Assembly: GCA_025060595.1 (NCBI GenBank)
Contig: JANXBX010000010.1
Span: 3,528 to 67,527 of the forward strand
Origin: Synergistota bacterium
GTDB taxonomy: Bacteria; Synergistota; GBS-1
Length of the DNA stretch: 64,000 bases
Direction: 5' to 3'
Position numbers and translations under genes: made by a program. Within the stretch, counting starts at the first letter, position 1. Each line of letters begins with the position of its first letter. Below, in pieces: positions 58,148 through 58,696 of the stretch. A model generated the notes under the pieces. That model did not search any database. It was not told the DNA's origin and worked only from the letters and a program-made list of their open reading frames with translations.

Positions 58148-58696
58148 CTAAACCACCTCCAAGTAAACTATGTTTTTGTTAAGAGGTTCTAACCTCTTTA
58201 TTAGCATATGTTTGAGCGGCTCTTCCTCTAAAAGCTTACCAACTAGTACGATATCCTTAAAATTGCCGCAAAAAACCGTAGTCATAGCCCATATTTCCTT
58301 GGCCATCTGGTAAGCCATAGCTTCAACTATAAATGGATCTTTTTTAATGGCCTCCCTTATGCTATCAGTAGAGAGATAAGAAAAAAGCCCTCCCTCTGTA
58401 AGTATCCTCTTTCTCCATGTATAAGGATCAGAAATGGCAAGTTTAGCAAAATCAGCCGTGGGGAGTTCTCCACAGGTTCGCAAAGAAAAAGCTCCTGATT
58501 CTGTTGAAGAAACAAAATCCACTATCTCTCCGTTATCTATAGCCACTACAGCAAATGGATCATCAACCAAAGCTATAATATATCTACCCGGCTCTAGCTT
58601 ACTATAGACTAAAGCAAAGAGCGGTAGAAAAGAATCCTCTATTTCTCTCTCTACTTCAGGAATGCCAGATATCCTAGCCACCCCTTTAAGCTTCAT
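58148..58696 (-). CDS. Truncated, degenerate butyrate-kinase-like protein
   Basis: The 182-residue protein (ATG at 58696 after GGGAGGGG) aligns by eye with the second half of the Buk encoded two genes downstream. Its [20 protein letters not shown] matches VVDVNNALNGDGPFTPERCP in Buk, and [17 protein letters not shown] matches [37 protein letters not shown] matches AMTYQVSKWIGKMASVLGKD. The first lobe is missing, including INPGSTSTK. The LGGGIS loop is replaced by DDPFAV, and the TGGMAHSE adenosine motif by VGKLLEEE. It is unlikely to phosphorylate anything by itself. It could be a regulator or partner of Ptb or Buk, or a decaying duplicate, though its reading frame is intact. Confidence 0.7.

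Follow-up and report, generated by a model that had tools for sequence, protein, structure and literature searches.

Two half-length paralogs of butyrate kinase (Buk), here called HK1 and HK2, accompany the two ptb-buk systems of a lineage of Synergistota. Both have the predicted fold of the second Buk domain, have lost the catalytic parts of the enzyme, are preserved by purifying selection and are strictly linked to ptb-buk gene pairs. The Ptb-Buk pair is the classic two-enzyme fermentation route to ATP and is usually treated as self-sufficient. We read HK1 and HK2 as non-catalytic domain-II subunits that pair with full-length Buk via the acetokinase dimer surface in a prozyme-like manner, and we put the probability of this reading at about 0.5.

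HK1 (182 aa) lies in a window of 64,000 nucleotides, the whole stretch of DNA that was analysed, and is encoded on the reverse strand at positions 58148-58696, with its ATG at 58694-58696. It belongs to a compact array of genes on the same strand. Upstream, the 3' end of tgt, encoding queuine tRNA-ribosyltransferase (58686-59888), overlaps the HK1 start by 11 nt, and the purine-rich ribosome-binding stretch of HK1, GGGAGGGGAAG (58700-58712, reverse strand), lies 5' of the ATG within tgt. An in-frame TTG 18 nt upstream of the ATG would give a protein of 188 aa; the orthologs share the 182-aa start. Downstream, the HK1 stop codon abuts the TTG start of ptb1, the phosphate butyryltransferase gene (57251-58147), with no gap, and ptb1 is followed by buk1 (56172-57233), a full-length butyrate kinase gene with all motifs present, which we start at the ATG at 57233 rather than at the TTG at 57263 chosen by the ORF tool. 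The apparent ribosome-binding site of ptb1, GGAGGT (58155-58160, reverse strand), is located within the HK1 codons for L-E-V, and in each of the family's four genomes the ptb site falls within the final HK1 codons. The invariant C-terminal EVV of HK1 is thus explained by a constraint at the RNA level and is uninformative on the protein.

Sequence models place HK1 in the second half of butyrate kinase, far above chance. It matches the NCBIfam butyrate kinase model NF002834 (9e-23, model positions 136-329 of 357) and the equivalog TIGR02707 (3e-20, 72.6 bits, model positions 133-325 of 351); both scores are far under the curated cut-offs for a full kinase, which for TIGR02707 is 289 bits, and the match to the latter is not full-length. 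The neighbouring BUK1 scores 536 bits on the butyrate kinase model, with every motif present, and shares ~26-30% identity with HK1 over 170-194 residues. All seven half-kinases that we found match both NF002834 and TIGR02707. The acetokinase family PF00871 (gathering score 22) recognizes HK2 with 25.4 bits; HK1 is unlisted there and has a sub-threshold match to DUF1464 alone.

Losses and retentions were read from an alignment with the full-length Buks of the phylum and a table of the positions conserved in them. The first lobe is gone from the half-kinases, and with it NPGSTSTK, GRGG, H113-N116 and the VDPVxVDE segment. In the remaining lobe, the phosphate-2 loop residues H191, G194 and G195 are lost (G193 is retained in HK2), as are E222 and R223, T310 and A314 of the adenosine motif, and the C-terminal GExE helix. 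The HALNxK helix is lost in HK1; its His is retained in HK2. Retained positions include G152 and P154 of the entry segment, A200, G204 and D208 of the hairpin (with Glu at G204 in one HK2), G225, P228, the GG pair, K291, G302 and G311. Thus, catalytic residues conserved in Buks are mostly gone and structural residues stay. HK1 lacks the combination of phosphate-1, phosphate-2 and adenosine motifs that marks a both-lobe ASKHA kinase, and, judging from the missing lobe and motifs, HK1 and HK2 are probably catalytically incompetent. The earlier note had described by eye a similarity of about 170 residues to the second half of Buk, an intact frame and ribosome-binding site with tight spacing to ptb, and the absence of the INPGSTSTK lobe, LGGGIS and TGGMAHS. 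All of this is confirmed: the lobe is missing, VDDPFA stands in place of LGGGIS and VGKLLEE in place of TGGMAHS. Its view of HK1 as an intact, selected half-kinase devoid of catalysis is supported by the motif losses and by the dN/dS values given below.

Predicted structures agree with the alignments. The AlphaFold model of HK1 (pLDDT 90.9, from a 41-sequence alignment) superposes 180 of its 182 residues on residues 133-333 of Thermotoga Buk2 (1x9j), with a Z-score of 21.9, an rmsd of 1.9 and 27% identity in the structural alignment. HK1 therefore is domain II, whole and alone, that is, the C-terminal lobe of Buk. The HK2 model (pLDDT 93.2, Z-score 24.6 to 1x9j, 33% identity) represents the same domain, and both models have the butyrate kinase domain II fold.

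HK2, a second half-kinase in the same genome by the second buk-ptb pair, is a new finding of this analysis. It encodes 188 aa outside the window (L005:7735-8301; G000 contig C2:205734-206300), on a different contig from HK1, in the order ilvE-like gene, buk2, ptb2, HK2, and is ~27% identical to HK1. The family was sampled by four genomes of three genera, including the public MAGs 'bacterium 42_11' (LGFB01) and 'bacterium GBS-1' (LEKQ01), which, following GTDB, we take to be a deep and probably thermophilic group within Synergistota. All four genomes carry HK1, in the order tgt-HK1-ptb1-buk1 as far as contigs reach, and three carry HK2, constantly as buk2-ptb2-HK2; the genome devoid of HK2 is 77% complete and also has no BUK2 match. 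Every homolog sits at a ptb-buk pair. At all seven loci, and in both gene orders, ptb stands between the half-kinase and buk, and 0-4 nt separate it from the half-kinase.

Related families within the phylum get by with full-length Buks alone, a point against the subunit reading. The search covered 185 genomes of the phylum, of which 122 gave Buk-type matches, and yielded no further half-length Buk other than ones truncated at contig ends; the short open frames in G154 and G171 are of this sort and were dismissed. Matches in plasmid records are mostly annotated as buk, and by identity none is close (best ~34%). The literature searched contained no description of a butyrate kinase that is half-length or a pseudoenzyme. 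One genome (G002) carries two buk2-ptb2 versions (L039, contig C60; L041, contig C24), 92% identical over 1546 bases and both at contig ends, so that either the locus is truly duplicated or the assembly mixes strains. In the single-contig assembly G047, the Buk matches near the start (L069, C1:1-9000) recur near the end (C1:2396705-2400315) with the same or similar scores, and the open frames of the start copies are shorter (268 and 319 aa versus 384 and 362 aa at the end), possibly an untrimmed circular overlap with errors.

Both half-kinases are preserved by purifying selection. HK1 orthologs are exactly 182 aa long, align gap-free over 182 codons in the four genomes and share 59-69% amino acid identity. 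Part of the pairwise dS values are saturated, so dN/dS is reported only for computable pairs: it is 0.12-0.16 for HK1 (dS 1.3-2.1) and 0.11 for the single computable pair of HK2. HK2 (64-67% identity among three genomes, one gap) is conserved like its neighbours PTB2 (61-67%) and BUK2 (62-74%). HK1 evolves faster than PTB1 (83-90%) and BUK1 (74-80%), yet far from neutrally. Constraint profiles of HK1 and HK2 smoothed over 7 residues correlate with r of 0.61, a value reached by none of 151 shifts; site by site and unsmoothed, conservation is hardly correlated (rho 0.12). Constraint peaks at the old phosphate-2 and acyl loops, in the GGxxxYLST segment and along helix aII1; the outer helix and the C-terminal helix are under low constraint. 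Conservation of the old acyl loop is 0.89 and 0.96 in the half-kinases versus 0.81 and 0.88 in the adjoining active Buks.

What such a protein may do is suggested by the dimers of the acetokinase family. The dimer of S. typhimurium AckA is held mainly by domain II, joined at the interface by the domain I insertion 150-180, and Asp227, Arg309, Lys312 and Tyr313 line a pocket at the two-fold (PMC3475010). Both half-kinases start at the counterpart of this insertion, and the counterparts of Asp227 and Lys312, placed by sequence alignment to AckA, are D60 and K133 in HK1, two positions that do not vary among the seven proteins. Since the dimer-holding elements are retained in both half-kinases, a prozyme-like subunit of Buk or of Ptb-Buk is the best reading; a dead protein with a dimer face and a rebuilt cleft is likewise best read as a partner subunit. 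The half-kinase would pair with full-length Buk through the ARxSGxPE N-terminal segment, the GGxxxYLST segment and the central helix aII1, and, like a prozyme, would stabilize Buk or tune its activity or oligomeric state. Because it is made in step with Ptb, it may also let Ptb and Buk pass acyl phosphate to each other locally, and the rebuilt, strictly conserved loop on the old substrate face could be a place for a ligand (acyl phosphate, acyl-CoA) or for Ptb. The retained dimer elements may also be mere fold core, or serve homodimers of half-kinases. A three-part Ptb-Buk-HK complex in both systems, in which the domain-II-only acetokinase caps Buk via the dimer face and links Ptb, is a more tentative proposal. 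As for the partner, we rank Buk first, at roughly even odds, and Ptb second, as a rather unlikely choice.

The case for Ptb starts from gene order: the half-kinase adjoins ptb and is at no locus the immediate neighbour of buk, an arrangement that would fit a partnership with Ptb. The old cleft face might then bind Ptb, and the half-kinase would be an adaptor that either links Ptb with Buk or acts on Ptb as a regulator instead of on Buk. The contact with ptb at every locus and in both gene orders fits such a role, as does the finding that the old acyl and phosphate-2 loops are the most conserved parts of both half-kinases. However, gene adjacency is no proof of binding, and the half-kinases are Buk paralogs that retain elements of the Buk dimer, so that we consider the adaptor doubtful. 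The strict conservation of the rebuilt loops in the former substrate pocket, together with the citrate-binding pocket known at the dimer interface of AckA (PMC3475010), is also consistent with a stand-alone homodimeric sensor of acyl phosphate, acyl-CoA or a carboxylic acid that regulates something else. Such a sensor would have no output domain and would leave the strict linkage to ptb-buk unexplained, which makes it less probable still.

It is very unlikely that the half-kinases are decaying duplicates, or open frames kept just to couple ptb translation to tgt. The ptb ribosome-binding site within the last HK1 codons fits coupling, and the long stems of both half-kinases in the trees (2.3 and 3.1 changes per site) indicate a fast phase at their origin. 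Decay is nevertheless refuted by seven of seven frames being intact at dS > 1, with dN/dS of 0.1-0.16 and zero frameshifts, and HK2 lies behind ptb and hence is not a ptb leader. Most improbable of all is that each is half of a split kinase receiving its first lobe from another gene or from Buk in trans, since, although the half-kinases end and start at domain borders, their own phosphate-2 and adenosine motifs are lost and a whole-genome search with the first lobe recovered the two full-length Buks only.

The origin of HK1 differs from that proposed in the earlier note, in which it stood beside its full parent. A sister relationship with the adjoining Buk, as expected for a recent duplicate, is rejected by the AU test (p = 0.001), and HK1 clusters with a different Buk lineage. 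Thus, of that interpretation, the intact and selected half-kinase, its linkage to ptb-buk and its Buk-lobe fold stand, and the parentage by the neighbouring Buk does not. Of the outcomes that the note named as speaking against it (no homologs in related genomes, relaxed selection, a fold unlike the Buk lobe), none was observed. In the tree of domain II, HK1 groups with the first member of a Buk tandem found in genus g6 (support 96/90), whereas in the full-length tree BUK1 groups with the second member (86/80), suggesting from these sequences that HK1 originated as a second, full-length Buk whose first lobe was lost. The exact parent is uncertain due to the very long stems of both half-kinases: grouping of HK1 with BUK2-type Buks (p 0.29) and of HK2 with BUK2 (p 0.23) is not rejected, nor is a common origin of HK1 and HK2 (p 0.21). 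Shared deletions and identical end points lean towards such a single origin rather than establish it. In several phylum families (L048, L050, L051, L052), two Ptb and two Buk lineages lie side by side in the order bukA-ptbA-ptbB-bukB, with an extra ORF between the ptb genes in L052. That bukA-ptbA-HK2 and HK1-ptb-bukB arose when a longer cluster, with the half-kinases at its centre, was split is only a thought, because the Ptb tree does not group PTB1 with ptbB.

Among known systems, Buk2 of Thermotoga maritima (TIGR02707; PDB 1saz, 1x9j) shares the fold of the half-kinases over residues 133-333 by common descent; relative to it, they have no first lobe, phosphate-2 loop or C-terminal helix and have lost most of the adenosine motif. 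The tandem Buks of genus g6 (L046:3844-6044 in G006, L047:3791-6001 in G011, and also G175) include the nearest relatives of HK1 (first gene), which may descend from the first Buk of such a pair, and of BUK1 (second gene). Unlike HK1, both are full length with their motifs and no ptb is present within the 10 kb read; at L046 the pair is flanked on one side by an aminotransferase-like gene and on the other by a 2-oxoacid:ferredoxin oxidoreductase-like gene set. A functional parallel is with trypanosomatid prozymes, the dead paralogs that activate AdoMet decarboxylase and deoxyhypusine synthase (PMC5201418, PMC3663545). As in that case, the half-kinases are apparently dead paralogs that purifying selection maintains alongside the active enzyme, and a heteromeric mode is proposed. 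By contrast, prozymes are eukaryotic, of a different fold and not cut to one lobe, and their activating role is proven, whereas for the half-kinases we infer it. Within bacteria, TsaB/YeaZ is an ASKHA-fold partner of an active ASKHA paralog, TsaD, in t6A synthesis (PMC11648230). TsaB does not correspond to domain II of an acetokinase, and the reaction it supports is a different one.

If the proposed pairing is true, it would show that an acyl-phosphate kinase can be controlled by an inactive half of its own kind, and Ptb-Buk would have a conserved third component in this deep lineage. A kinase lobe would then act as a regulator of substrate-level phosphorylation in both ptb-buk systems of the lineage, and the family would provide a clean test case for pseudoenzyme subunits that arise via loss of a whole lobe with the dimer face kept. 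Open frames of this kind are easily mis-annotated as kinase fragments.
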